Assembly: GCA_030605695.1 (NCBI GenBank)
Contig: JAUWHX010000008.1
Location: 1 to 54,477 of the forward strand
DNA: 54,477 nucleotides
Source of the DNA: a bacterium
GTDB lineage: Bacteria; Hydrothermota; UBA3073; JACQXS01
Direction of reading: 5' to 3'
The position numbers and the translations under genes were made by a program. The notes under the pieces were generated by a model. That model ran no database searches. It was given only the letters and a program-made list of their open reading frames with translations, and was not told the DNA's origin. Below are positions 2,379-53,530 of this stretch, one piece after another. Numbering within the stretch: position 1 is the first letter of the stretch; each line of letters starts with the position of its first letter.

Positions 2379-2407
2379 AGAATACAGGTGGGTTTTGGGG
2401 AAGTCAA
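2379..2407 (-). promoter_or_regulatory. Sigma70-like promoter for the nuclease-like gene
   Basis: On the minus strand TTGACT (2402-2407) is followed by a 17-bp spacer and TATTCT (2379-2384). Transcription would start near 2372, about 90 bases before the ATG at 2283. Confidence 0.5.
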
Positions 2408-2416
2408 GGAAAAGAT

Positions 2417-2465
2417 TTAACCACAGAGGACACAGAGTCTGCGACAGAGGACACAGAGTCAGAAG
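2417..2465. repeat. Dispersed CCACAGAGGACACAGAGTC repeat, two tandem parts
   Basis: Two copies of a GAGGACACAGAGTC core flank TCTGCGACAG. A close relative overlaps the 3' end of the MBL-fold gene at 3852-3883. The embedded GTCGCAGACTC (reverse strand) recurs in murE (28111-28121) and at 14936-14946. Confidence 0.7.
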
Positions 2466-6228: not shown

Positions 6229-6339
6229 TAAATATTTCTCAGGTAAATAATATTGCAATTTATTTCTGGAACGGATATTCTCTTAACAAAAGGGACATCT
6301 CTAATACCTCAACAATGCTAATAGTCTTCACGAAAAAGC

Positions 6340-11040: not shown

Positions 11041-11877
11041 TCAATAGAAATTTGGAACTAACGAAAAAACCCGCGTAGATAAACCACGAGTGAGTTTCAC
11101 AAACTCTTCGCAACTCAAGGATTCTGGTCTTCTGGATAAATCTATTCCTCCAACTGTGTCTATTTTTAACCCTAAACTATTTTTGAGTTGCTTACGACGC
11201 TCCTGAAATGAACGCTTGACAACTTTGAAAAATAATGGCTCCTGAATTTCCTTAATCCTACTTTTCGGCAAGATAGATATAACTTGAGAAACTATCGGAG
11301 TCCTTGGGAAAAATGAGTTTCCGGAGATTGAAAAGTGTTGCTCAAGCTCCATATAAAATTGATGAAAAACAGATAGGGCTCCGTAAATCTTGCTCCCGGG
11401 CTGGGCACAAAGTCTTTGAACCACCTCTTTCTGGAGAGTGAGAATACATAATTTGAAAAATGCTTTATTTGATAAAATCCAGTAAAGAAAATCATTTGTG
11501 ATGGAATATGGTAGATTGGAAACAACCTTGAGACTTGAGACTTGAGACTCGAGACTTGAGACTTTGAGGGAGAGAATGTCTTGATTTAAGAGCACCAAGT
11601 TCTTTGTCCCTTGTCCACAGGATTCTGTGAAAAATTTTTGGGTTAAGTACCTAAAAAGCAATGGGTCTTTTTCAACTGCAAAGACTTTTTTTGCATAAGC
11701 ACATAAATATTGTGTGAGAATCCCAAGCCCAGGCCCTACTTCAAGAACTACATCTTCTTGACGTATTTCACTGAGACGGATTATCCGTTCAGCTATCTTT
11801 TCATCGACAAGAAAGCTTTGACCAAATTGCTTGCTTGGTTTTATTCCTTGCTCTTTCAGTATTTCTTTGACAAACAT
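11041..11877 (-). CDS. rsmA: 16S rRNA (adenine1518/1519-N6)-dimethyltransferase
   Basis: The SAM motif VLEVGPGLGILTQYL (about 44-58) follows the family's QSFLVDEKIAERI opening. The catalytic NLPYSITNDFLYW motif is near residue 125, and the C-terminal helical domain is present with FQERRKQLKNSL. It dimethylates two adenines at the 3' end of 16S rRNA late in 30S assembly. Just before NLPY the sequence KVSSLESQVSSLKVVS is encoded by a 7-bp array (11525-11567), and a CCACAGGATTCTGTGAA element (11614-11631) lies about 17 codons nearer the N-terminus. Both are in frame and extend a region that is usually compact. The stop overlaps the -35 of the truncated cyclase gene. Confidence 0.95.
   Translation of the reverse strand: MFVKEILKEQGIKPSKQFGQSFLVDEKIAERIIRLSEIRQEDVVLEVGPGLGILTQYLCAYAKKVFAVEKDPLLFRYLTQKFFTESCGQGTKNLVLLNQDILSLKVSSLESQVSSLKVVSNLPYSITNDFLYWILSNKAFFKLCILTLQKEVVQRLCAQPGSKIYGALSVFHQFYMELEQHFSISGNSFFPRTPIVSQVISILPKSRIKEIQEPLFFKVVKRSFQERRKQLKNSLGLKIDTVGGIDLSRRPESLSCEEFVKLTRGLSTRVFSLVPNFY
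11525..11567. repeat. 7-bp array (GACTTGA)n inside rsmA
   Basis: Six units of GACTTGA with small changes run at a 7-bp period. The last unit is 8 bp or more. On the coding strand it reads TCAAGTC-type heptamers and the frame stays open. Confidence 0.85.
11614..11631. repeat. CCACAGGATTCTG element inside rsmA
   Basis: TCCACAGGATTCTGTGAA; it differs from the copies in ftsI and ftsA by one base. It is read on the minus strand as FTESCGQ. Confidence 0.7.
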
Positions 11878-13318: not shown

Positions 13319-14839
13319 TTATCTCATCAAAATCAGTTTCTTTGTCTCTTTAAAATCTCCTGTCGTCAGACCCGTATGGGCTACAAGCTTCGCAAAATAT
13401 ATGCCAGCTGTCAAGTCTTTTGCATCAAAACTAACATCATAACATCCAGCTTTCCTTTCTTCATTTACTAATGTCTTAACTATCCTTCCAGTTATATCAT
13501 GAATCGTTAACCGTAAATCGTTAATCGTGTAATCGTTACGATTTCCGTTTAACGAATAACGAATAACGGTTTTCTGAGTAAATGGATTCGGAAAAACTCT
13601 AAACTCTAAACTCTTAACTTTTAACTCTTTACTCTCCTCCACACTTGTTCCTTCACATTTATGACGCTTGTAATATATCTCCGGTCTGCCAGCACGCTCA
13701 TCTGTCCAAGTTACATGAACATCATAATCATAAGAACAATCCCAACATGCTACCGAAGGATAATATGAGGAAGCAAGGGCATTAGTTAACCTCTCATCTA
13801 TTATCCCCCAAGTCTCACCATCATTAACTGACCGATTGTAATATATCTCCGTATTGCCAGCACCAGCACGCCAATCTCTCCAAACTATATGGACTATTGA
13901 ATCATGAACTGCTACTGAAGGATACTTTGAGCCATCAGGGTCAGTAGTTAACCTCTCCTCTATCCCCCAGGTCTTACCATTATCAACTGACCGCTTGTAA
14001 TATATCTCCCAGCTGCCAGCACACTCATCATGCCAAACTACATGAACTATTGAATCACGAACTGCTACCGAAGGACACTCTGAGTCAGCAGAGTTATTAG
14101 TCAGTCTCTCATTTATTATCCCCCAATTCTCACCATTATTAACTGACCGCTTGTAATATATCTCATAGTTGCCAGCAGCACACAAATTATACCAAACCAC
14201 ATGAACTATTGAACCATGGACTGCTATTGAAGGATGTCCTGAGTAGTAAAAAGAGTCATTAGTCAGTCTCTTATCTATTCCCCAAGTCTTACCATTATCA
14301 ACTGACCGCTTGTAATATATCTCCGGGTTGCTATTACGAGAATCACACCAAACTATATGGACTATTGAATCACGAACTGCTACCGAAGGATACCATGAGC
14401 CAGCAGGGTCATGAGTTAATCTCTCATCGTCTCCCCAGGTCGCACCATTATCAACTGACCGCTTGTAATATATCTTATAGTTGCCAGCACGCAAATCACA
14501 CCAAACTATATGGACTATTGAATCACAAACTGCTACCGAAGGATAATGAGAATTCCCTGTAGTTAGCCGTGTATCTGGGTCAAAGCTACTGCCAGAATTG
14601 ATAGACCTTATGTAATAAAGCTCACCGGGATTAACACCACTACTCAATCTGTGTTCCCATACAATATGCACCATAGTATCCCGCACAGCTATTGTCCAGG
14701 CATTATTGAAGCTACCATAGTCAGAATAGCTTGGATAAGCAGTTAATCTTTTTTCTGGATTCTCCCACTGTCCATACAAATCCATAGGATTCTGTGAACT
14801 GCAAGCTGCCAACACCATCAAAAATCCCCATCTCTTCAT
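13319..14839 (-). CDS. Secreted sialidase-like (BNR) beta-propeller protein with Por-type sorting domain
   Basis: The N-terminus MKRWGFLMVLAACSS has a lipobox-like LAAC. About seven repeats of roughly 48-50 residues follow, each with YPSVAVRDSIVHVVW then EIYYKRSVDNGKTWG. This resembles the BNR/Asp-box pattern of sialidase-fold propellers, but the catalytic residues of sialidases are not evident, so a binding or structural role is likely. The last 90 residues form a type IX-like sorting domain (VFPNPFTQKTVIRYSL, DITGRIVKTLVNE, AGIYFAKL, TKKLILMR). Two heptameric arrays (13502-13570 and 13596-13637) are read in frame in that domain. The start has a clear AAGGAG site. Confidence 0.85.
   Translation of the reverse strand: MKRWGFLMVLAACSSQNPMDLYGQWENPEKRLTAYPSYSDYGSFNNAWTIAVRDTMVHIVWEHRLSSGVNPGELYYIRSINSGSSFDPDTRLTTGNSHYPSVAVCDSIVHIVWCDLRAGNYKIYYKRSVDNGATWGDDERLTHDPAGSWYPSVAVRDSIVHIVWCDSRNSNPEIYYKRSVDNGKTWGIDKRLTNDSFYYSGHPSIAVHGSIVHVVWYNLCAAGNYEIYYKRSVNNGENWGIINERLTNNSADSECPSVAVRDSIVHVVWHDECAGSWEIYYKRSVDNGKTWGIEERLTTDPDGSKYPSVAVHDSIVHIVWRDWRAGAGNTEIYYNRSVNDGETWGIIDERLTNALASSYYPSVACWDCSYDYDVHVTWTDERAGRPEIYYKRHKCEGTSVEESKELKVKSLEFRVFPNPFTQKTVIRYSLNGNRNDYTINDLRLTIHDITGRIVKTLVNEERKAGCYDVSFDAKDLTAGIYFAKLVAHTGLTTGDFKETKKLILMR
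13502..13570. repeat. Degenerate ATCGTTA/AATAACG heptamer tract inside a coding sequence
   Basis: ATCGTTA-type units on one side give way to their reverse complement AATAACG on the other, so the tract is both tandem and inverted. It encodes NGNRNDYTINDLRLT within the sorting domain, where homologues have a short turn. Confidence 0.7.
13596..13637. repeat. 7-bp array (ACTCTAA)6 inside a coding sequence
   Basis: Six units of exactly 7 bp, from ACTCTAA to ACTCTCC. They encode the linker residues ESKELKVKSLEFRV before the sorting domain of the propeller protein. Confidence 0.85.
14781..14798. repeat. CCATAGGATTCTG element at the start of a secreted-protein gene
   Basis: TCCATAGGATTCTGTGAA is a variant of the CCACAGGATTCTG element. 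It encodes SQNPMD just after the lipobox-like cysteine. Confidence 0.6.
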
Positions 14840-14886: not shown

Positions 14887-14961
14887 ATTATTTTTCACAA
14901 ACTCCTCAAATAGAGAATTGAAAGATTCAAGATTTGTCGCAGACTCTATGAGCGGTTAAAT

Positions 14962-17139: not shown

Positions 17140-17988
17140 ATGAAGATATATCCTGAATGTGTGCCTTGCTTCTTTAAACAGGCACTTACTACTCTCAGAA
17201 TGGCAACCCAAGATGAGAAGCTACATTTCAAAGGGCTGAAGGAAATCCTAAAACAGATGCCTGAACTTCTTAAACTGCCTACTCCGACTCATGTTGGCAG
17301 AGTAATTCATAACCTACCGAAAAAGATAGCTAATAATCCTGACCCCTATAAAGAAGCAAAAATCCGCAATACAGAACAGGCACTTAAGCTTTACCCCAAA
17401 CTAAAAGAACGAGTCAACAACTCAAAAGATAGACTGCTTGCAGCCATAAAAGTTGCAGTTGCTGGAAATATAATAGACTTTGCTTGTGGCTTTAATTTTA
17501 AGGAAGATTTGGAGCATACTCTTAATCTTGACTTCCAGGTTCTTGATTATAAAGAATTTAAAAGAGAACTGGAGGAAGTGGACGAGATACTATATTTAGC
17601 AGACAATGCAGGTGAGACTGTATTTGACCATGTGCTTATTGAGGAACTTAATAAGTTCAACAAAAAAGTATTGTATGCAGTAAGAGGCGTGCCAGTTCTT
17701 AATGACGCCACAGAAGAAGATGCAAGGAGAGCTGGCATACACGAGGTGGCTGAGATTATAAATTCAGGGACTGATGCACCTGGAGCTGTGCTTGAATATT
17801 GCACCCCAGAGTTCAGGAAATTATTTTATGAGAGTAAGCTCATAATAAGTAAGGGACAGGGGAACCTTGAAGCACTCTCTGAAGTAAAGGCGCCTATTTA
17901 TTTTCTTTTCAAGGTTAAGTGTCCGGGAGTTGCCCGTGAACTTGGAATGAATCTTGGAGATATAGTTTTCAAAAGAAATGCCAAATGA
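17140..17988 (+). CDS. DUF89 / ARMT1-like damage-control phosphatase, 282 aa
   Basis: The start, MKIYPECVPCFFKQAL, carries the CxxC pair typical of the prokaryotic DUF89 subfamily. The metal-site motif LADNAGETVFDHVLIEEL is at about 150-167, and the later ISKGQGNLEAL motif at about 237-247 marks the second half of the site. Characterised relatives are metal-dependent phosphatases acting on damaged or overflow sugar phosphates. There is no signal peptide, so it is cytosolic. The gene stands alone between divergent secreted-protein genes and the epimerase operon. The exact substrate is unknown. Confidence 0.9.
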   Translation: MKIYPECVPCFFKQALTTLRMATQDEKLHFKGLKEILKQMPELLKLPTPTHVGRVIHNLPKKIANNPDPYKEAKIRNTEQALKLYPKLKERVNNSKDRLLAAIKVAVAGNIIDFACGFNFKEDLEHTLNLDFQVLDYKEFKRELEEVDEILYLADNAGETVFDHVLIEELNKFNKKVLYAVRGVPVLNDATEEDARRAGIHEVAEIINSGTDAPGAVLEYCTPEFRKLFYESKLIISKGQGNLEALSEVKAPIYFLFKVKCPGVARELGMNLGDIVFKRNAK

Positions 17989-25778: not shown

Positions 25779-27299
25779 ATGGATAAGAAAGTATCTCTTG
25801 GAAGACTAACCTTAATTATAGGACTTGCCATTGTATTCGAGCTTTCTATTATTGCGAGACTCATTAATCTCCAGTTTTTCCGTCGCAGTGGGTTCCAGAT
25901 TCGTGTCAAGGAACAATCGGAAACAAAAGTTAAAGTAACGGCTAAGAGGGGTAGAATTTATGATAGATACCGTAGAATCCTTGCTACCTCTATCAGCAAG
26001 CAGTCCACAGGATTCTGCGAAAGGGTATATCCACTCGAAGAGGTTGCAGGAAATTTGCTTGGGTTCGTAGGAAAAGATAATATAGGATTAGAAGGAGTAG
26101 AGTATGAATTTGACCCTCTCCTTTCTGGAAAACCGGGATGGATGACTCTGGGCAAGACCCCACGAGGGCATCTTTACCCTTACCCGGGTTATCCTCGCAC
26201 CCGCGTGAAACCCGCAAAAGACATTGTTTTAACAATAGATGCTGACATTCAAGCTATTATTGAGGCAGCTTTAATGAAAAGAATTAATGAGGTGCAAGCA
26301 AAAAAGGGAAGCGCTGTAGTTATTGACCCAAGAACTGGTGAGATATTAGCTATGGCAACAGTCCCTTCTTATAATCCTAATCACTGGAAAAGAGAAGCTT
26401 GCCGAAGAAATGTTCCTCTCCAGGACCAATTTGAACCAGGCAGTACTTTTAAAATTGTACCCTTATCTATTATTGTAGAGGAAAGTCTTGTAGGTCTTGA
26501 GGACACAGTTGAAGATGGGACTGCAAAAATAACAATAAGTGGCAAGACAATCAGAGATGTTAAGCCACATGGTCCATTCACATTTGCTCAAGCTGTTTGG
26601 AAGTCAAGCAATGTAGCGTTTGTTAAACTCACAAACTTAATTGGCAAACACAGATTTTATTCTGCTGCAAGAGCTTTTGGCTTTGGAATTCCAACCGGAG
26701 TATCTCTTCCAGGAGAAGCGAGCGGAAGTTTATCTCTTCCATCAGGCTGGAGTAATCTGAGATTTGCAAACCTTGCTTTTGGTCAGGGAGTGAGTTGTAG
26801 TTTGCTTCAGCTCGCCTTTGCATATCAGGCAATTGCAAATGATGGAGTGCTCTTAAAACCAATAATAATTAAAGAGGTCATTTCAGAAAAAGGAAAAGTG
26901 CTTTATGAAGAGAAACCTATGAAAGTTCGAGAAGTTTTACCTCCGGAAAAAGCAAAAGAGGTTACAGAACTTTTATGTGGAGTAGTAGAAAATGGAAGTG
27001 GAATGCTTGCGCGGATTAAAGGGCTGAAGATGGCAGGAAAAACTGGAACTGCAAATAAGTGTGTTAGTGGAAGGTATGTTTCATCTTATATGTCAAGTTT
27101 TGTATGTTTTTTCCCAGCAGATAACCCCATATTTCTTGTTGCTACTGTAATTGATGAGCCAAAATATGTATATCTTGGTGGTGAGGTTGGCGGTCCTCTA
27201 ATGCACGAGATAGCAAGAAAAATCACTCGGATAAGGGAATATAGAGTTATTGACTGCCAACCACCGACCGTGGATAGTGGAGTTGAAGATGAAGCTTAA
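25779..27299 (+). CDS. ftsI: Division-specific peptidoglycan transpeptidase (PBP3/FtsI)
   Basis: One membrane helix (about 10-34) is followed by the pedestal domain and the transpeptidase domain with all three motifs: S222TFK, S276SN and K421TG. At 506 residues it is short. Between RGRIYDRYRRILATSIS and RVYPLEEVAGNLLGF, where FtsI proteins usually have 60-80 residues, only KQSTGFCE is left. That junction is the CCACAGGATTCTGCGAA element (26004-26021), suggesting a repeat-associated deletion of part of the pedestal. The active site is intact, so the enzyme is probably functional. The C-terminus overlaps the murE start by 11 bp. Confidence 0.95.
   Translation: MDKKVSLGRLTLIIGLAIVFELSIIARLINLQFFRRSGFQIRVKEQSETKVKVTAKRGRIYDRYRRILATSISKQSTGFCERVYPLEEVAGNLLGFVGKDNIGLEGVEYEFDPLLSGKPGWMTLGKTPRGHLYPYPGYPRTRVKPAKDIVLTIDADIQAIIEAALMKRINEVQAKKGSAVVIDPRTGEILAMATVPSYNPNHWKREACRRNVPLQDQFEPGSTFKIVPLSIIVEESLVGLEDTVEDGTAKITISGKTIRDVKPHGPFTFAQAVWKSSNVAFVKLTNLIGKHRFYSAARAFGFGIPTGVSLPGEASGSLSLPSGWSNLRFANLAFGQGVSCSLLQLAFAYQAIANDGVLLKPIIIKEVISEKGKVLYEEKPMKVREVLPPEKAKEVTELLCGVVENGSGMLARIKGLKMAGKTGTANKCVSGRYVSSYMSSFVCFFPADNPIFLVATVIDEPKYVYLGGEVGGPLMHEIARKITRIREYRVIDCQPPTVDSGVEDEA
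26004..26021. repeat. CCACAGGATTCTGCGAA element at the shortened pedestal of ftsI
   Basis: TCCACAGGATTCTGCGAA is identical over its length to the two ftsA copies. Read as QSTGFCE. Confidence 0.8.
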
Positions 27300-28848
27300 A
27301 GAACTTATAAAAGAGTTAATCCGTCAACCGATGGAGAAAAGTGAAAAGTTAAAAGTTATAGAAAATATAGAAGTAAAAGGTATTAGTTATGATTCACGGC
27401 TCGTAAAACCGGGCTGGCTTTTTGTAGCTCTTAAAGGTGATAACTTTGATGGACATTCCTTTCTTGAACAGGCAAAACAAAAGGGTGCAATTGCTGCAAT
27501 CTGTAATCTGTCTACAGGATCCGATGGACAATCTGTAATCTCTAACCCCAGATTGCCAATTATAGCAGTAGAGGATAGTAGAACCATGCTTGCGGATTTA
27601 GCACAGAAATTTTATGGCAATCCATCTAATGATTTAAAAATAATAGGAGTAACAGGAACTTATGGAAAAACAACATCAACTTGGCTATTGAAATCAATAT
27701 ATGAGGCACAGGGTTTGCAAACTGGCTTAATCGGAACCATTAAATACGAGATAGGCGATAACTCTGTATCTGCTCATCATACGACTCCTGAATCCCTTGA
27801 TTTGCAAAGGATTTTTTATGAGCTAAGAGAACAAGGTATAAAAGTTTGTATTATGGAAGTCTCTTCACATGGACTCGCACTTGAGAGAGTTCGTGGAGTA
27901 GATTTTGACATCGCTGCTCTCACTGGCTTAGGCAGAGACCATCTTGATTTTCACCATACTCTTAAAGAGTATGAAAACACAAAACTCAAACTCTTTTCGG
28001 ATTTAAAACCCGATGCTCTTGCTGTATTAAATCAAGATGACCACACTTTTAACCGCTTCAAAAAATATACAAAGGCAAAAGTTATAAGTTATGGGACTTC
28101 TTCTCCACAGGTCGCAGACTCGTTTCAAGATTCTGCGAATAAGTGTAATGTGTGTGGTAAGCTTTGCTCTTCAACTCAAGAGGGAATTGAGGTTCTTATA
28201 CGATGGGATGGTAGGAAAGAAAAGATTTCTTCTAAGTTGGTGGGAGGGTACAACCTTTATAATGTTTTACTCGCAGCTACTTGTGCTTTAAAAGACGGAG
28301 CCAGTTTTGAGGTAATTCGTGAAGGAATAGAGAAGATGGAACAGGTCCCGGGAAGATTTGAACGAGTAGGTCGTGTAATAGTGGATTATGCACATACACC
28401 TGAGGCATTGAAATCTGCACTCAAGTCCACAAGAGAACTTGCTAAAGGAAGAATTATATGTGTATTCGGATGCGGGGGAGACAGAGACCAAGGGAAACGT
28501 CCTTTAATGGGGAAAATTGCTTCTGAACTCGCAGATTATGTGATTCTTACCACAGATAATCCAAGAAGTGAAGACCCTCTCCAGATTATAGAAGATATTA
28601 TACAAGGAGTTACTGTTGGAAATTATGAAATCGTTCTTGACCGTGAACAGGCAATCCGTACGGCAATTGAGAGGTCAAGTGAAGAGGACATTATTTTATT
28701 AGTGGGAAAGGGACACGAAAATTATCAGATTTACGGCGAGCTGAAAATTCCTTGGGACGATAGAGAAGTAGCAAGAGAAATTCAAAACAATTCACCACAG
28801 AGTCAGGGAGACGCGAAGGACACAAAGAATAAGGCACATGTTGTATAA
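27289..28848 (+). CDS. murE: UDP-MurNAc-L-Ala-D-Glu:meso-DAP ligase
   Basis: The ATP loop is GVTGTYGKTTST (the usual GTNGKT with Tyr for Asn, about 120-131). SSHGLALERVRGVDFD and LGRDHLDFHHTLKEY follow, and DNPR at 423-426 marks meso-diaminopimelate specificity. ATG 27289 overlaps ftsI and has GGAG upstream; the frame is open further back to 27250 but inside ftsI. Three repeat-derived segments are in frame: a heptamer array near the N-terminus (27336-27356), the GGATCC element (27514-27533) with TAATCTG flanks, and the long CCACAGG...GATTCTGCGAATAA element (28104-28142). The last 17 residues lie in a palindrome (28794-28885). A 76-bp tract is shared with murF. Confidence 0.96.
   Translation: MKLKELIKELIRQPMEKSEKLKVIENIEVKGISYDSRLVKPGWLFVALKGDNFDGHSFLEQAKQKGAIAAICNLSTGSDGQSVISNPRLPIIAVEDSRTMLADLAQKFYGNPSNDLKIIGVTGTYGKTTSTWLLKSIYEAQGLQTGLIGTIKYEIGDNSVSAHHTTPESLDLQRIFYELREQGIKVCIMEVSSHGLALERVRGVDFDIAALTGLGRDHLDFHHTLKEYENTKLKLFSDLKPDALAVLNQDDHTFNRFKKYTKAKVISYGTSSPQVADSFQDSANKCNVCGKLCSSTQEGIEVLIRWDGRKEKISSKLVGGYNLYNVLLAATCALKDGASFEVIREGIEKMEQVPGRFERVGRVIVDYAHTPEALKSALKSTRELAKGRIICVFGCGGDRDQGKRPLMGKIASELADYVILTTDNPRSEDPLQIIEDIIQGVTVGNYEIVLDREQAIRTAIERSSEEDIILLVGKGHENYQIYGELKIPWDDREVAREIQNNSPQSQGDAKDTKNKAHVV
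27336..27356 (+). repeat. 7-bp array (GAAAAGT)3 inside murE
   Basis: Three units, GAAAAGT, GAAAAGT and TAAAAGT, give residues EKSEKLKV. Confidence 0.7.
27425..27500 (+). repeat. 76-bp tract shared with murF (murE copy)
   Basis: It is identical to 29050-29125 except for one base, and encodes ALKGDNFDGHSFLEQAKQKG. The similarity ends sharply on both sides. Confidence 0.92.
27496..27560 (+). repeat. Compound insertion in murE: inverted ends around a GGATCCGATGGACAATC element
   Basis: GCAATCTG (27496-27503) and CAGATTGC (27552-27559) form inverted ends around TAATCTG-type heptamers and the GGATCCGATGGACAATC core (27517-27533). It encodes residues NLSTGSDGQSVISNPRLP. Confidence 0.7.
28104..28142 (+). 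repeat. Long form of the CCACAGG...GATTCTGCGAATAA element in murE
   Basis: The short element is split by GTCGCAGACTCGTTTCAA, a motif also seen at 14936 and (reverse) near 2437. Read as PQVADSFQDSANK. Confidence 0.7.
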
Positions 28849-28885
28849 AAACTTTGTGAGCTCTGTGACTTTGGGTCTTTGTGGT
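28794..28885. repeat. Palindromic repeat across the murE 3' end
   Basis: ACCACAGAGTC... (from 28794) pairs imperfectly with ...CTTTGTGGT (to 28885), of the same class as 12491-12558. It encodes the last 17 residues of MurE and reaches to 11 bp before the murF ATG. Confidence 0.8.
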
Positions 28886-28895
28886 TAACTATACT

Positions 28896-30251
28896 ATGGA
28901 AGAGATAAGACTTGAAGATATTTTAAAGGCAGTTAGTGGGTCCATTCCCAACTCTCAACTCCGAGGCGAGCCTCTCTCAACTCTTAACTCACAACCCATA
29001 AAAGGGGTGAGTATAGATTCAAGAACTGTCAGCCCTGGCGAGCTATTCATAGCTCTTAAAGGTAATAACTTTGATGGACATTCCTTTCTTGAACAGGCAA
29101 AACAAAAGGGTGCAATTGCTGCAATTGTGCAAATCCCCAATCCCTCCGCAGGATCCGATGGACAATCCCCAATCCCAAGCATAGTGGTAAAAGATACTCT
29201 AATAGCACTTGGAGATTTAGCAGATTGGTACAGAAACCTATTTTCTATTCCAATTATTGGAATTACAGGCTCAAATGGTAAAACGACCACAAAAGAGCTT
29301 ACAGCAAAATGTCTTTCTACAAAGTATAGAGTTCTGAAGAACGAAAAAAGCTTCAATAGTCTTACAGGAGTTCCTCTCACTTTATTTAATCTAAGCAAGA
29401 ACGATGAGATATGTGTTCTCGAAATCGGAGCAAATCACCCCGGAGAGATTGGGAGACTTGCTCAAATTGCAAAACCAAGCATTGGCGTAATCACAAACAT
29501 AGCTCCTACTCATCTTGAGAATTTCAAAACAATTGAAGGGGTTTTAGAAGAAAAGCTTAAATTACTTGAAATGGCAGAGGTTTCTATTTTAAATGCTGAT
29601 GACCCTCTTCTTTCACAGAGAAGGAATGCTTTTAAATTCGGAATAAACAATGGAGACTTGAGAGCAGAGCTCCTAGAATCAACTAAGGGGATAAGATTTA
29701 AAGTAAATGGGGTTCTTTTTGAACTCCCCTTATTTGGGAAGTATCAGGTTTATAATGCTCTTGCTGCTATATCTGTAGGAATTCACTCTAATCTGGAACT
29801 TCAGGAGTTGAGCGAAACTCTTAAAGAGGCAGTTCCTGCTCCACATCGTGAAGAAATAATAAATTTTAATGGAATTAAAATTATAGATAGTACATACAAT
29901 GCAAATCCTGTCTCAATGAGGCTTGCACTTGAAGAATTGAAAAGATACAAGGGACGGAAAGTTGCAATTTTAGGAGATATGTTAGAACTTGGAGAAAATG
30001 CAAGCCAGTTCCACCTTGCAATAGGGAAAACCCTCAAAGAATTCGGAGTTCAAATTATAATTGGAGTTGGAGAACTGGCAAAGGGGTATGTTAACGGGAA
30101 CGGAGTTGATGAGAAATTTTATTTTGAGTCTATAGATTTACTTTTGAAAGAGATAGGAAATGTTATAAAACCCGGAGATGTGATTCTCATCAAAGGGTCT
30201 CGTGCAATAGGGATGGAGAGAATAGTTGAAAGTTTAAAGTTGAAAGTTTAA
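28896..30251 (+). CDS. murF: UDP-MurNAc-tripeptide:D-Ala-D-Ala ligase
   Basis: GITGSNGKTTTKEL (about 122-135) is the ATP loop, followed by EIGANHPGEI, TNIAPTHLENF and the conserved IDSTYNANPVSMRLAL with AILGDMLELG. It adds D-Ala-D-Ala to the UDP-linked tripeptide. ATG 28896 is preferred; a GTG at 28881 lies in the preceding palindrome. Repeat-derived, in-frame parts are NSQLRGEPLSTLNSQ near residue 25 (heptamers with a CTCCGAGGCGAGCC element), the 76-bp tract shared with murE, the GGATCC element (29148-29167), and the C-terminal SLKLKV from a heptamer array. Confidence 0.95.
   Translation: MEEIRLEDILKAVSGSIPNSQLRGEPLSTLNSQPIKGVSIDSRTVSPGELFIALKGNNFDGHSFLEQAKQKGAIAAIVQIPNPSAGSDGQSPIPSIVVKDTLIALGDLADWYRNLFSIPIIGITGSNGKTTTKELTAKCLSTKYRVLKNEKSFNSLTGVPLTLFNLSKNDEICVLEIGANHPGEIGRLAQIAKPSIGVITNIAPTHLENFKTIEGVLEEKLKLLEMAEVSILNADDPLLSQRRNAFKFGINNGDLRAELLESTKGIRFKVNGVLFELPLFGKYQVYNALAAISVGIHSNLELQELSETLKEAVPAPHREEIINFNGIKIIDSTYNANPVSMRLALEELKRYKGRKVAILGDMLELGENASQFHLAIGKTLKEFGVQIIIGVGELAKGYVNGNGVDEKFYFESIDLLLKEIGNVIKPGDVILIKGSRAIGMERIVESLKLKV
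28951..29001 (+). repeat. Heptamer tract with CTCCGAGGCGAGCC element inside murF
   Basis: ACTCTCA, ACTCTTA and ACTCACA units surround AACTCCGAGGCGAGCCTC (28957-28974). The core resembles CACTCCGCGGTGAACCAC in dnaX (49879-49896); both encode LRGEP. Confidence 0.65.
29050..29125 (+). repeat. 76-bp tract shared with murE (murF copy)
   Basis: It has one difference from 27425-27500 over 76 bases and is followed, after a short divergent stretch, by the same GGATCCGATGGACAATC motif (29151-29167). Confidence 0.92.
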
Positions 30252-33861: not shown

Positions 33862-34916
33862 AGATAATTATTGCAACTGGAGGCACAGGAGGACACATAT
33901 TTACAGGGCTTGCTATTGCTGAGGAATTGGATAATCTTGGAGTCAAGGTGCTAATCGTTGCTTCGAAATCCGCACTGCCGGATGCTATTATACAAAAACA
34001 ATATCCGCTCGAGATTACTTGCCAGCGTCCATTGCTTGGCAAAAACCTCAAACAGAAGCTTGCATTCCCTGTTTTCCTGGGGCTTTCATTATTTCAGTCT
34101 ATATATATAATAATGAGAGAAGCTCCAGATGGCGTAATCGGAACTGGTGGATTTGGCTCTTTCTCGCTTGTGTTTGTTGCTGCTTTCCTGCATATTCCCA
34201 CAATAATAACGGAAATCGATTCTGTCCCCGGACTTACTACAAAAATACTTTCAAGATTCGCTCACGAAATCTGGCTCGCTTTCCCTTCTGCCAAGAACAA
34301 ATTACCAGCTAAAAAAACAATCCTCGCTGGGGTCCCTGTTAGAAAGAAGATTACAAAACCTACTAAAACTATTAAGGATTTTGGACTATGTGATAACAAG
34401 CCTACTATATTTGTCTTCGGTGGCTCAAGAGGTGCGAGACATATAAATGAAGTCCTCGAGAAAGTTTTAGACCTCAAAATACTCCCAGATTTCCAATTTA
34501 TATGGCAAACCGGCGACTCACAACTCACAACTCGTAACTCAAAACTCCCAAATGTTTATATCACTAAATTTATTGATGATATAGAAAACGCTTATGCCAA
34601 TGCAGACCTCGTAGTCTCAAGAGCAGGTGCTTTAACCATTGGCGAGATTACAGCTATTGGTTTGCCCGCTATTTTCATTCCTTATCCTTATGCTACTGGG
34701 CAACACCAACTTTTAAATGCAAGAGCTTTGGAAAAAACGGGCGCTGCAAAAGTAATTTTAGATAAGGACTTAACCCCTGAACTCCTTGCAAAAGAAATAA
34801 AGAGGATAATCGAGGATAAAAAATTACAAACTAAGATGAAAACAGCTATGAAACAATTTAGTAACCCCGAAACAGCTAAACTAATAGCTAACAGAATGTT
34901 AGAACTATGCAACTAA
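33858..34916 (+). CDS. murG: Lipid II synthase (UDP-GlcNAc:lipid I GlcNAc transferase)
   Basis: The N-terminal motif IIIATGGTGGHIFTGLAIAEEL (with the GGTGGH loop) is at residues 3-24. GVIGTGGFGSFSLV is near 90, FVFGGSRGARHINEVL near 185, and the UDP-GlcNAc site VVSRAGALTIGEITAIGLP near 252 with PYPYATGQHQLLNA. It is GT-B fold and peripheral to the inner membrane. A five-unit 7-bp array (34516-34550) gives DSQLTTRNSKLPNV in the usually compact link before the second Rossmann half. Confidence 0.96.
   Translation: MKIIIATGGTGGHIFTGLAIAEELDNLGVKVLIVASKSALPDAIIQKQYPLEITCQRPLLGKNLKQKLAFPVFLGLSLFQSIYIIMREAPDGVIGTGGFGSFSLVFVAAFLHIPTIITEIDSVPGLTTKILSRFAHEIWLAFPSAKNKLPAKKTILAGVPVRKKITKPTKTIKDFGLCDNKPTIFVFGGSRGARHINEVLEKVLDLKILPDFQFIWQTGDSQLTTRNSKLPNVYITKFIDDIENAYANADLVVSRAGALTIGEITAIGLPAIFIPYPYATGQHQLLNARALEKTGAAKVILDKDLTPELLAKEIKRIIEDKKLQTKMKTAMKQFSNPETAKLIANRMLELCN
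34516..34550 (+). repeat. 7-bp array (ACTCACA)5 inside murG
   Basis: Five units of exactly 7 bp: ACTCACA, ACTCACA, ACTCGTA, ACTCAAA, ACTCCCA. Confidence 0.9.
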
Positions 34917-36342: not shown

Positions 36343-37638
36343 ATGAAAAACCAAATTATTGCTGGCATTGATTTAGGAAGCTCTAAAATCGCTTGTATGA
36401 TTGCTAAAACAAGTGCCCCTCCACAGGATTCTGCGAATAATCCAGCCCCAGAAATCATTGGTGCAGGGATTTCAGAGCCTAAGGGTTTCTCCAATGGTTT
36501 GGTGGTCAATCTCGAACTTGCTGCTCAATCTATTAAAAATGCTACTTCTCTTGCTGAGACGCAAGCTGGTGTTAAACTATCAGAGTTATATATTGCTATT
36601 ACAGGTGCACACATTAAAGGTGAATCCTCAAAAGTTTCTCTCTCCATTTCACCTGACAAAGAGATTACGCCTGCTGATGTTTCTCAACTCGTTCAACAAG
36701 CTTCCACTGTTGACCTCCCATCTCACCGTACTATCATTCACTCGTTCCCCCAAGAATTTATTCTTGATGACCTCCACGGCATCCGCGACCCCATTGGTAT
36801 GAACGCTAACCGCCTACAGGCCTCTATTTACATTGTTACTGCTACTTCTACCGCCATACAAAATATCCAGAAAGCCATTAATAGAGCAGGATTTAAAGCA
36901 AGAGAGTTCCTCCCTCAGCCCATCGCCGCTTCTTACTCTGTCCTTGATTCCAATGACCAAGAACTCGGTTGCATGCTTATTGATATTGGCGGTGAAACTA
37001 CTGATGTTGCTGCCTTCTATAACGGTGGTATTTATGATACTCTTTCACTCGGTCTCGGCGGAGCTGATATTACTAATGATATTTCTATCGGACTTTCTAT
37101 ATCAAGATATCATGCCGAACAACTAAAAATCAAACACGGTGCTGCTCGCTCTGACCTTGCTTTCTCACTCTCATCTCCACAGGATTCTGCGAATAAACAC
37201 TCCTCTCCAATTAAGATTCAATCTCTCGGCAAAGACATTGAACAAACCATTGATAAAAAATCTCTCATTTCCATCATTGCTCCTCGCGTTGAGGAAATCT
37301 TTGGATTGCTTCACAGAAAACTGAAATATCCGACTGACTTAGAGCTCCTTCCTGCTGGTATCGTTCTTACCGGAGGTGCTGCTAAAATGCCTGGCATTTC
37401 AGGACTTGCCGAACGCATCTTTGGTATCCCTGCTAAAATTGGTATCCCTAATACTGTTCAATCGCTTAATCAATATAAAGACCCTTCTTTTGCCACACCT
37501 ATCGGCCTTATTATTTATGGCTCTATAGATAAATCCGCCTCAAACGGAAATAAAAGAAACGGAAGGATGGGAAAATCTTCAAAAGCACCTTTGCTCTCAT
37601 CTTTCTCTAATCGTGTGAAAAGCTGGCTATTAGAATAA
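36343..37638 (+). CDS. ftsA: Cell division protein FtsA
   Basis: This is an actin-fold ATPase: IAGIDLGSSKIACMI (about 5-19) is phosphate 1, CMLIDIGGETTDVAAFY (about 208-224) is phosphate 2, and GIVLTGGAAKMPGISGL (about 342-358) is the adenosine motif. A short basic C-terminal tail (NRVKSWLLE) should be the membrane-binding amphipathic helix. FtsA tethers FtsZ to the membrane. AGGAGG 7 bases before the ATG is an unusually strong ribosome site. Two in-frame CCACAGGATTCTGCGAATAA elements encode PPQDSANN (36420-36440) and SPQDSANK (37176-37196). Confidence 0.96.
   Translation: MKNQIIAGIDLGSSKIACMIAKTSAPPQDSANNPAPEIIGAGISEPKGFSNGLVVNLELAAQSIKNATSLAETQAGVKLSELYIAITGAHIKGESSKVSLSISPDKEITPADVSQLVQQASTVDLPSHRTIIHSFPQEFILDDLHGIRDPIGMNANRLQASIYIVTATSTAIQNIQKAINRAGFKAREFLPQPIAASYSVLDSNDQELGCMLIDIGGETTDVAAFYNGGIYDTLSLGLGGADITNDISIGLSISRYHAEQLKIKHGAARSDLAFSLSSPQDSANKHSSPIKIQSLGKDIEQTIDKKSLISIIAPRVEEIFGLLHRKLKYPTDLELLPAGIVLTGGAAKMPGISGLAERIFGIPAKIGIPNTVQSLNQYKDPSFATPIGLIIYGSIDKSASNGNKRNGRMGKSSKAPLLSSFSNRVKSWLLE
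36420..36440 (+). repeat. CCACAGGATTCTGCGAATAA element inside ftsA, copy 1
   Basis: It is identical to copy 2 (37176-37196) over 21 bases and read in the same frame (PQDSANN), in a loop after the first ATPase strand. Confidence 0.9.
37176..37196 (+). repeat. CCACAGGATTCTGCGAATAA element inside ftsA, copy 2
   Basis: It is identical to copy 1. Read as PQDSANK in a surface segment between the two phosphate-binding lobes. Confidence 0.9.
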
Positions 37639-37802: not shown

Positions 37803-39098
37803 ATGAAAAACCTAAGATTCCAATTCTCAGACCAACAAGTTGCAAACTCTGTACAAGATTCTGCAGACACGAACCACGAACACGAACCACGAACACGAAC
37901 ACGAATTAAAACTATCGGTGTCGGTGGATGTGGCGGCAATGCTATTAATACTGTACTTAAAACTATAACTCCCAACTCCCAACTCTCAAACTCTTCAACT
38001 CCCCAACTTGTAACTCCCAACTCCTTTATTGCCATTAATACTGACCGTCAAGCACTTTCTATTTCCAACGCTCCTACCAAAGTTCAAATTGGTATCTCTA
38101 TCACAAAGGGCTTTGGCTCTGGTGGAGACCCGGAAATTGGCAAAAAAGCCATTGAGGAAAATATTGATGATGTTAAAACTGTTATTAAAAATACCGATGT
38201 CCTTTTCATTATCGCCGGTATGGGTGGAGGTACTGGAACAGGTGCTTCACCTACTATCGCCAAAATCTCAAAACAATCCGGAGCTTTTACTATTGCCATT
38301 GTTACTTTTCCCTTCGATTGTGAAGGTAACAAACGTGCCCTACAAGCTACTGCTGGTATATCTGAATTAAAAAAATACACTGATGCCCTCTTGTTACTCC
38401 ATAATCAAAAATTGCTTGTTATGACTTCCAAGGAGACCCCTCTTGTCAATGCTTTTGAACTCATAAATCAAACTATAGCCCAGACAGTTCAGGGATTAAC
38501 AGAGATTATTCTCTTGCCGGGGCTCGTTAATGTAGATTTCGCTGATATACGGACTCTTATGTCTCAAAAAGGAGATGCTTTCGTCGGAACTGGGTCCTCC
38601 AATTATAGTATCGGCTCCTCTTGTAATGTAGCTCAAGAACTTAATCCTGTTAACATCAATCCTAACCCCCAAACCCTAATCCCTAACCGTACTATTATTG
38701 CTTTACAACAAGCTATTAATTCTCCATTCCTCACGAAATCCTGTTTGCGAGGTGCATCGGGTATCCTTATTAACATATCCGCCGGCCAATCCCTTACTCT
38801 GTTTGAAGCAAAAAATGCTATTTCTACTGTCAGAGATATGGTTCACCACGATGCTAATATTATTTTCGGCATTCACATTAATCCCACACATAAAGTATGT
38901 ACAGAACAGGATGAAGTCAAAATTACTATAATTGCCACTGGAATAAAGCAAGATTATTGTAAACCATACAAATATTCAGAGCAAAATCTGAAAATCCCAG
39001 CATTCAAGAGGAAAAATTATGATTTCTTAGCCTTTAAAAAACACGAAAGTTCAGAGATTCTTACTTTCTCAAAACGTCAAAATGGGCTTAAATCCTAA
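37803..39098 (+). CDS. ftsZ: Cell division GTPase FtsZ with in-frame repeat insertions
   Basis: Core motifs are intact: GVGGCGGNAINT (about 39-50), the tubulin signature GGGTGTG at 141-147, and the T7 catalytic loop NVDFADIRTLM. LKIPAFKRK near the C-terminus resembles the conserved tail peptide that binds FtsA. Three parts are abnormal. An N-terminal extension (residues 17-34, QDSADTNHEHEPRTRTR) comes from a GATTCTGC element plus ACGAAC repeats. Residues 54-74, between helix H1 and the FIAINTD strand, come from a 7-bp array (37962-38024). Residues 286-295 come from another (38659-38686). All are in frame in an essential polymer protein. Confidence 0.95.
   Translation: MKNLRFQFSDQQVANSVQDSADTNHEHEPRTRTRIKTIGVGGCGGNAINTVLKTITPNSQLSNSSTPQLVTPNSFIAINTDRQALSISNAPTKVQIGISITKGFGSGGDPEIGKKAIEENIDDVKTVIKNTDVLFIIAGMGGGTGTGASPTIAKISKQSGAFTIAIVTFPFDCEGNKRALQATAGISELKKYTDALLLLHNQKLLVMTSKETPLVNAFELINQTIAQTVQGLTEIILLPGLVNVDFADIRTLMSQKGDAFVGTGSSNYSIGSSCNVAQELNPVNINPNPQTLIPNRTIIALQQAINSPFLTKSCLRGASGILINISAGQSLTLFEAKNAISTVRDMVHHDANIIFGIHINPTHKVCTEQDEVKITIIATGIKQDYCKPYKYSEQNLKIPAFKRKNYDFLAFKKHESSEILTFSKRQNGLKS
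37962..38024 (+). repeat. 7-bp array (ACTCCCA)n inside ftsZ
   Basis: Nine units of 7-8 bp (ACTCCCA, ACTCTCAA, ACTTGTA and so on) give TPNSQLSNSSTPQLVTPNS. Confidence 0.9.
38659..38686 (+). repeat. 7-bp array (CCCTAAN)4 inside ftsZ
   Basis: ATCCTAA, CCCCCAA, ACCCTAA, TCCCTAA give NPNPQTLIPN. Confidence 0.8.
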
Positions 39099-53272: not shown

Positions 53273-53512
53273 TATATGAATGAGTTAGAGAGTTCTATGA
53301 GTGACTCGGTAACATTACCGAATGACTTGGTAGCATTACCGAACCGATGGGGAACACTGCCGAACGACTCGGTAGCATTGCCGAATGAATGGGTAAGATT
53401 ACCGAACGGATGGGGAACATTCCCGAACGAGTGGGGAACATTACCGAATGGATGGGGAAGAGTACCGAATGACTTGGGAACCTTCCCGAACGAATTGGGA
53501 ATATATGGAGTG
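53273..53512. repeat. 21-bp palindromic array with shared 30-bp leader (por operon)
   Basis: The leader 53273-53302 is followed by units starting at 53303, 53324, 53345, 53366, 53387, 53408, 53429, 53450 and 53471, plus a degenerate tenth at 53492. Cores are GGTAA-CA-TTACC or GGGAA-CA-TTCCC; units 1, 5, 6 and 9 pair perfectly, with the arm change made on both sides. Confidence 0.93.
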
Positions 53513-53530
53513 CAACAAGTAAAAGACTGA
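53276..53530 (+). CDS. Small heptad-repeat ORF inside the por operon, 84 aa
   Basis: It starts MNELESSMS, the same 9 residues (and same 30 bp) as the small ORF between ftsW and murG. Nine repeats of seven residues follow, of the form DSVTLPN, DLVALPN, EWGTLPN, GWGTFPN, then a short tail IYGVQQVKD. It lies between a por-operon membrane gene and porB on the same strand. Because 21 bp is a multiple of three, openness alone does not prove translation; two reverse-strand frames are open too. The shared start codon and downstream placement favour this frame. No family is known to me. Confidence 0.45.
   Translation: MNELESSMSDSVTLPNDLVALPNRWGTLPNDSVALPNEWVRLPNGWGTFPNEWGTLPNGWGRVPNDLGTFPNELGIYGVQQVKD

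Follow-up and report, generated by a model that had tools for sequence, protein, structure and literature searches.

An 18-bp sequence found repeatedly within the genes of a WOR-3 bacterium is very likely mobile. Where sister species differ in carrying it, the difference is a block of exactly 18 nt, and the target is not duplicated. The best explanation, and a likely one, is a family of non-autonomous 18-bp mobile elements that in some WOR-3 either is still active or recently has been. That very small repeats within bacterial genes might be mobile is a long-standing suspicion, yet it is seldom that both empty and filled sites are seen with exact borders. Here the borders, the length, the target rule, and the order of nesting of the 18-mer can be read at base resolution.

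The window, i.e., the whole 54,477-nt stretch of DNA analysed, is one contig (C20) of a WOR-3 MAG of 1.98 Mb and 84% completeness (G000), which was the genome searched and whose phylum is inferred from a near relative. An initial annotation of the window had proposed a short element, CCACAGGATTCTGCGAATAA, inserted in frame in essential genes, and that proposal is supported. The unit itself requires correction, as it is exactly 18 bp, TCCACAGGATTCTGCGAA (TCC...GAA), with the TAA of CCACAGGATTCTGCGAATAA instead being flank, outside the unit, common to the two ftsA copies. Other than a short target motif, flanks beyond the 18-mer are not shared between copies. Genome-wide there are 106 matches to TCCACAGGATTCTGCGAA with no more than 3 mismatches (65 forward, 41 reverse) versus 1 for a reversed-pattern control; for the 20-mer as annotated, at the same threshold, 0.00 matches are expected given dinucleotide shuffles of the window. 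The copies and hosts found in the window are as follows.

6243..6244, no strand: empty target site CAGG^TAAA, where the sister species G001 carries TCCAACGGATCCGACGGA (G000-G001 alignment).
11041..11877, minus: rsmA, host (Pfam RrnaAD).
11614..11631, plus: 18-bp element TCCACAGGATTCTGTGAA, antisense in rsmA, the rsmA strand encoding FTESCG (sequence match).
13319..14839, minus: gene for a secreted protein with BNR repeats and Por_Secre_tail, host (domain search).
14781..14798, plus: 18-bp element TCCATAGGATTCTGTGAA, antisense, where this BNR/Por-tail protein has its signal peptide (sequence match).
14937..14954, plus: second-family 18-mer TCGCAGACTCTATGAGCG, intergenic (sequence).
25779..27299, plus: gene for an FtsI-type penicillin-binding protein, host (Pfam Transpeptidase).
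26004..26021, plus: 18-bp element in the FtsI-type gene, encoding STGFCE (sequence match).
27286..28848, plus: murE, host (Pfam Mur ligase domains).
27511..27528, plus: variant TCTACAGGATCCGATGGA, i.e., TCT ACA GGA TCC GAT GGA, of the TCC/TCC subfamily, in murE (sequence).
28104..28139, plus: composite in murE, in which a second-family 18-mer interrupts the first-family element TCCACAGG/ATTCTGCGAA (comparison of G000, G001, and G002).
28112..28129, plus: the nested second-family 18-mer TCGCAGACTCGTTTCAAG in murE, inserted after CAGG (present only in the G000 species).
28881..30251, plus: murF, host (Pfam Mur ligase domains).
29145..29162, plus: variant TCCGCAGGATCCGATGGA, of the TCC/TCC subfamily, in murF (sequence).
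36343..37638, plus: ftsA, host of two copies (Pfam FtsA, SHS2_FTSA).
36420..36437, plus: 18-bp element TCCACAGGATTCTGCGAA, ftsA site 1, encoding PQDSAN (18-nt gap in ftsA of G002).
37176..37193, plus: 18-bp element TCCACAGGATTCTGCGAA, ftsA site 2, encoding PQDSAN (sequence match).

The annotation's exact or near copies at 36420, 37176, 26004, 11614, and 14781 are all present, and what it called a longer, split form in murE (28104) holds as well, as one 18-mer interrupted by another. A partial copy which it placed in ftsZ (about 37850) could not be confirmed, since TACAAGATTCTGCAGA lies beyond 3 mismatches and is too diverged. The variants TCTACAGGATCCGATGGA in murE, whose G001 counterpart is TCCACAGGATCCGATGGA, and TCCGCAGGATCCGATGGA in murF are members that it had missed.

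The unit consists of two abutting triloop hairpins, [TCC NNN GGA][TTC NNN GAA], each with a 3-bp stem and a 3-nt loop, and it is in this hidden manner palindromic, where previously it had been described as not obviously so. When every trinucleotide stem pair was tried as [X NNN X'][Y NNN Y'], the TCC/TTC class was prominent, with 66 matches across both strands of the DNA examined, and there were two smaller, related stem classes, TCC/TCC and GTC/TCT. Loop lengths are fixed at 3/3 and hairpin spacing at 0, with the TCC/TTC pattern yielding no matches in that same DNA, on either strand, when its hairpins were spaced by 1 to 5 nt. Across 58 distinct variants, paired cells make up 93% under the two-triloop model, whose score for covariation exceeds all 500 shuffles; those variants were picked solely by distance from the consensus and C at -4, so it must be kept in mind that they were selected for closeness to that consensus. 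Substitutions cluster in the loops, chiefly at positions 5 and 14, while the stems covary. Folding of the 18-mer is predicted to be energetically weak. A single 7-bp hairpin spanning the 18-mer, which an RNA fold of the bottom strand predicts, was rejected, its pairs scoring below shuffles.

Mobility is seen in comparison with G001 (JAGMCN, isolate RS_17_16), which is of the same genus as G000 and about 93% identical in DNA where aligned. The alignments cover 340 kb of G000; roughly half of the G000 sequence, and only a portion of that of G001, entered the comparison. Among the 81 clean indels of at least 3 nt, 15 are of exactly 18 nt, the commonest length above 3, and every one of these 15 is a family member or sister 18-mer, with no target-site duplication at any of the sites. 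Such clean presence/absence differences show recent change. Certain G001 loci were chosen for carrying the element, inflating apparent G001 gains; among contigs chosen regardless of the element, there were three 18-nt indels, and all three again are family or sister 18-mers. Gain versus loss was polarized by outgroups for genes of the window only, not for every polymorphic site.

Within the window, the FtsI gene of G002 (same genus as G000) displays an 18-nt gap exactly at the insert, an insert which is common to G000 and G001, and the six residues are missing also from the G004, G006, and G007 proteins. For RsmA the exact 18-nt gap is found in G003, with the insert again common to G000 and G001. 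Both FtsI and RsmA carry exactly six extra codons versus homologues. At ftsA site 2 a relative has an unrelated linker, so insertion there cannot be dated. A structure model of FtsA (mean pLDDT 77) places the inserts in disordered loops modelled with low confidence, residues 27-32 (site 1, between strands 1 and 2) and 275-286; a model of FtsI was too poor in quality to be used. As a separate observation, two paralogues encoding secreted proteins (MKRWGFL...LYGQW) have an 18-mer in the shared signal peptide but not at the same point of it, at 14781-14798 of the window and at L089:9881-9898, which indicates independent insertions.

At the murE composite, G002 is without an insert, G001 has the outer 18-mer alone, and G000 has the outer plus the nested 18-mer, implying a two-step history of insertion. 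At least eight such composites, with a second-family 18-mer at the same internal point of the first, exist in G000 and G001, of which two are polymorphic between these genomes. The second 18-mer family, that is, inserts at one fixed point within the first.

Could these instead be ordinary conserved protein or regulatory sequences, maintained by selection at the level of DNA or peptide? The strong conservation of the stems would be consistent with that view. Against it, homologues exist exactly without the 18-mer, sister species differ in its presence, and the 18-mer is read in all phases and on both strands, giving different peptides. The initial annotation had offered as its refuting outcome the same residues being carried by homologues, and WOR-3 relatives instead lack the insert in FtsI, RsmA, FtsA site 1, and MurE. 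For datable copies ordinary conservation is refuted, and as a general explanation it is all but excluded.

Insertion follows a rule. A C is found at -4 in 50 of 58 of the G000 copies (p ~1e-27) and in 28 of 30 copies of G006, a genome from another WOR-3 family of the same order. Empty sites, in canonical orientation, already carry this C at -4 (10/11, p ~8e-7), so the C precedes insertion. T is favoured at -3 and -2 and G is avoided at +1. The target consensus is CYTN^, with insertion three bases beyond the C. Base pairing between loop and flank, i.e., as a guide such as in IS608, was considered and rejected, loop/target covariation being not above chance.

This regularity bears on a second alternative, in which the unit arises when a polymerase slips or switches template at quasi-palindromes and then spreads by gene conversion, without any enzyme of its own. 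In favour are the tiny size of the unit and the many simple-sequence inserts (AACTC- and ACGAA-type) inside genes of the same genomes. Slippage does not, however, import a defined sequence, whereas here the same 18-mers are seen at unrelated sites, lacking flanking homology, at fixed length, and with C at -4. This alternative is considered very unlikely.

That all copies keep the reading frame, as the initial annotation had it, also holds, but not by aiming. Eighteen nucleotides make six whole codons, none of the unit's six frames contains a stop, and insertion adds no other bases; it is these properties that preserve the frame. Aiming at reading frames can be rejected, as copies also lie between genes, in either orientation and in every phase. 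In the count inside and outside of genes which that annotation had suggested, 47 of 61 non-redundant strict copies are inside ORFs and 14 are between genes, versus 9.4% expected to be intergenic; ORFs were called greedily, without a gene finder, and placement counts therefore are approximate. Genic copies are 22 sense and 25 antisense, with phases of 20/7/20, and the peptides differ by frame, i.e., PQDSAN, STGFCE, FAESCG, SQNPVD, and others, across both strands and all phases. It is likely that insertion is near-indiscriminate, with later selection against some peptides and genic sites, which would fit both the phase and the intergenic counts.

Outside the window, hosts include genes for TruB, TsaE, RuvB, a PurL-type FGAM synthase, SelB, an OmpH-like protein, and a glycosyltransferase. 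Essential genes, namely those of FtsA, FtsI, MurE, RsmA, TruB, TsaE, and RuvB, have been entered repeatedly, with six residues gained each time, and 18-mer insertion represents a route by which proteins may gain short linkers in a single step.

Distribution was counted across 147 WOR-3 genomes using a loop-relaxed pattern. Copies number 66 in G000, 50 in G001, 30 in G006, and 15 in G009, while remaining genomes have 0-3 each, mostly unrelated sequences, and this includes G002 as well as G008, which is from the family of G006. The element accordingly is patchy within the phylum and likely is active, or until recently was, in some of its bacteria. No exact match was found in 2.9 million viral contigs, i.e., as could have pointed to a viral vector. 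Separately, a Flammeovirgaceae MAG, BBD 1991-12 (Bacteroidota; L031, L038, L042), has 39 matches to TCCNNNGGATTCNNNGAA. Several of these are close inverted pairs, their loops, unlike in WOR-3, mostly keep the overall palindrome, and the C rule was not seen in the three readable copies. Convergence with the WOR-3 element is a possibility.

What moves the 18-mer has not been identified, a question that now becomes directly testable. In kind, the best fit is single-strand transposition of IS200/IS605 type, which best accounts for the fixed length, absence of duplication, preceding target base, hairpin ends, and absence of coding capacity, with REPs as its known small clients. By inference, a hairpin-recognising strand transferase would act in trans upon single-stranded DNA, placing copies 3' of a short target in an IS200/IS605- or RAYT-like manner. 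A genic insertion lengthens the protein by six residues, which loops tolerate, and the host would for the most part experience neutral, selfish DNA that supplies short peptide linkers. The single-stranded route specifically is one that I would, on balance, bet slightly against. As in IS200/IS605, the 18-mer enters cleanly on the 3' side of a short fixed target and duplicates nothing (15 clean sites; C at -4 in 10/11 datable canonical ones). As to the lagging-strand preference of the latter, 18-mer strands by GC skew are 35 versus 26, with no clear bias to one replication-like strand, and no matching Y1 gene was found in these incomplete MAGs.

A third alternative is that the 18-mers simply form a new REP family, of REP/REPIN type and with a RAYT (Y1) transposase to move them. 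In its favour, the repeats are short hairpins, insertion is clean and beside a short target as with REPs (PMC3116915, PMC3733652), REPs are known inside genes (PMC3733652), and Y1 genes are found in 13 of 16 WOR-3 genomes. Against it, the 18-mer flanks lack a terminal GTAG, having only C at -4 (CYTN), and the 18-mers are single rather than close inverted doublets (only 6 neighbour pairs within 400 bp among about 66 copies, and in mixed orientation), are mostly intragenic, and are without a linked RAYT. No Y1 gene was found in G001 (61% complete), nor does Y1 number follow copy number, with G009 having 15 Y1 genes yet only 15 copies. The only Y1/RAYT gene of G000 has REPs of its own on its flanks, unlike the 18-mer (GTGGGAGGGACTTCC...AGTCCC), and on that basis it was rejected as mobiliser, though a partner could still lie in the part of the genome that the MAG lacks. 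This alternative is unlikely. That RAYT, at L142 (G000:C61) 17260-17580, minus strand, lies amid several REPs of GTGGGAGGGACTTCC[T/A]AGTCCC type and represents a separate REP system in G000.

A fourth alternative, RNA-templated insertion via target-primed reverse transcription of a small RNA, would account for precise copies along with loop variants. No RVT_1 gene, however, was found in 16 WOR-3 genomes, including G006 (96% complete, 30 copies), and neither truncated copies nor tails were seen, rendering this very unlikely. A serine resolvase was rejected as mobiliser, being missing from G006 and G009 (30 and 15 copies), with resolvases not tracking copy number. A multi-copy gene with an element near its end, at first taken for an IS transposase, is actually that of a papain-family secreted protease. 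A mobilising enzyme, then, was not found in the genomes searched, though MAG incompleteness leaves room for one.

Among known systems, the closest are small dispersed repeats (SDRs), CGTC-type REPs, and Rickettsia palindromic elements (RPEs), and the 18-mer has been shown to be a member of none of these. Cyanobacterial SDRs (e.g., SDR5; Elhai et al. 2008, via citations in PMC4390886 and PMC2884548) are dispersed units of about 20 bp that are thought to be mobile, and SDR5 inserts precisely between bases 3 and 4 of HIP1 (PMC4390886). The likeness, made without sequence comparison, is of a short dispersed unit with presence/absence between relatives, and SDR5 in HIP1 recalls the second 18-mer family entering a fixed point of the first; the differences are another phylum, the C(-4) target rule, and the two-triloop structure. 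CGTC-tagged REPs, including Rickettsia RPE-4 and RPE-6, possess a CGTC tag, an 8-9 bp stem, and a 4-5 nt loop; they too are short palindromic repeats, intragenic in unrelated conserved proteins, and with no dedicated transposase known (PMC3733652). The 18-mer differs from these and from short RPEs in having no CGTC, TGTC, or CCTC tag and in having two 3-bp stems with 3-nt loops, a long-stem model scoring below shuffles. RPEs otherwise are long palindromes of about 100-150 bp that encode a conserved peptide (PMC10969869). The initial annotation had named RPEs as the nearest parallel while noting the element to be much shorter. The shortness holds (RPEs are eight times longer) as does the likeness, namely that unrelated protein-coding genes take up the insert in frame and their proteins tolerate it; membership does not, with the 18-mer giving different peptides by frame. 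In its behaviour the 18-mer resembles SDRs, as a very small mobile repeat, and also the protein-coding Rickettsia elements.

To return to transfer by a strand transferase, the two hairpins could fold into a nicked 18-nt dumbbell with its ends meeting (GGATTC-loop-GAATCC-loop). This equivalence is one of geometry only and is not evidence of such an intermediate. A bolder reading, possible though less likely than not, is that 18-nt dumbbells are moved by an unrecognised system, which leaves no duplication at its CYTN^ sites and serves several sequence families of common architecture, one of them targeting a fixed point in another; its enzyme would be of a type so far unconnected with elements like these. 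Were this so, few known mobile DNA units would be as small as the 18-mer.

Other repeats are present as well. Simple-sequence inserts of AACTCCCAACTC and TCAAGTCTCAAGTC types occur in or beside conserved genes (window 37960-38025, 28943-28997, 11530-11580, and 34515-34547), including one within the GTPase domain of FtsZ, at which G001 carries an additional unit of 30 nt. A stretch of 127 nt is common to murE (27374-27500) and murF (28999-29125) at 83% identity, both encoding KGDNFDGHSFLEQAKQKGAIAA, suggesting gene conversion between paralogues. Presence/absence insertions of 117-120 nt, MITE-like, are found at L172:5494 (empty at L087:12356) and at L107:17041; these are imperfect inverted CACAGAG/CTCTGTG or ACGAA/TTCGT repeats, with related sequence at window 2407-2460. 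Lastly, arrays of 21-nt tandem repeats are found at 1201-1431 and 53282-53519 of the window.
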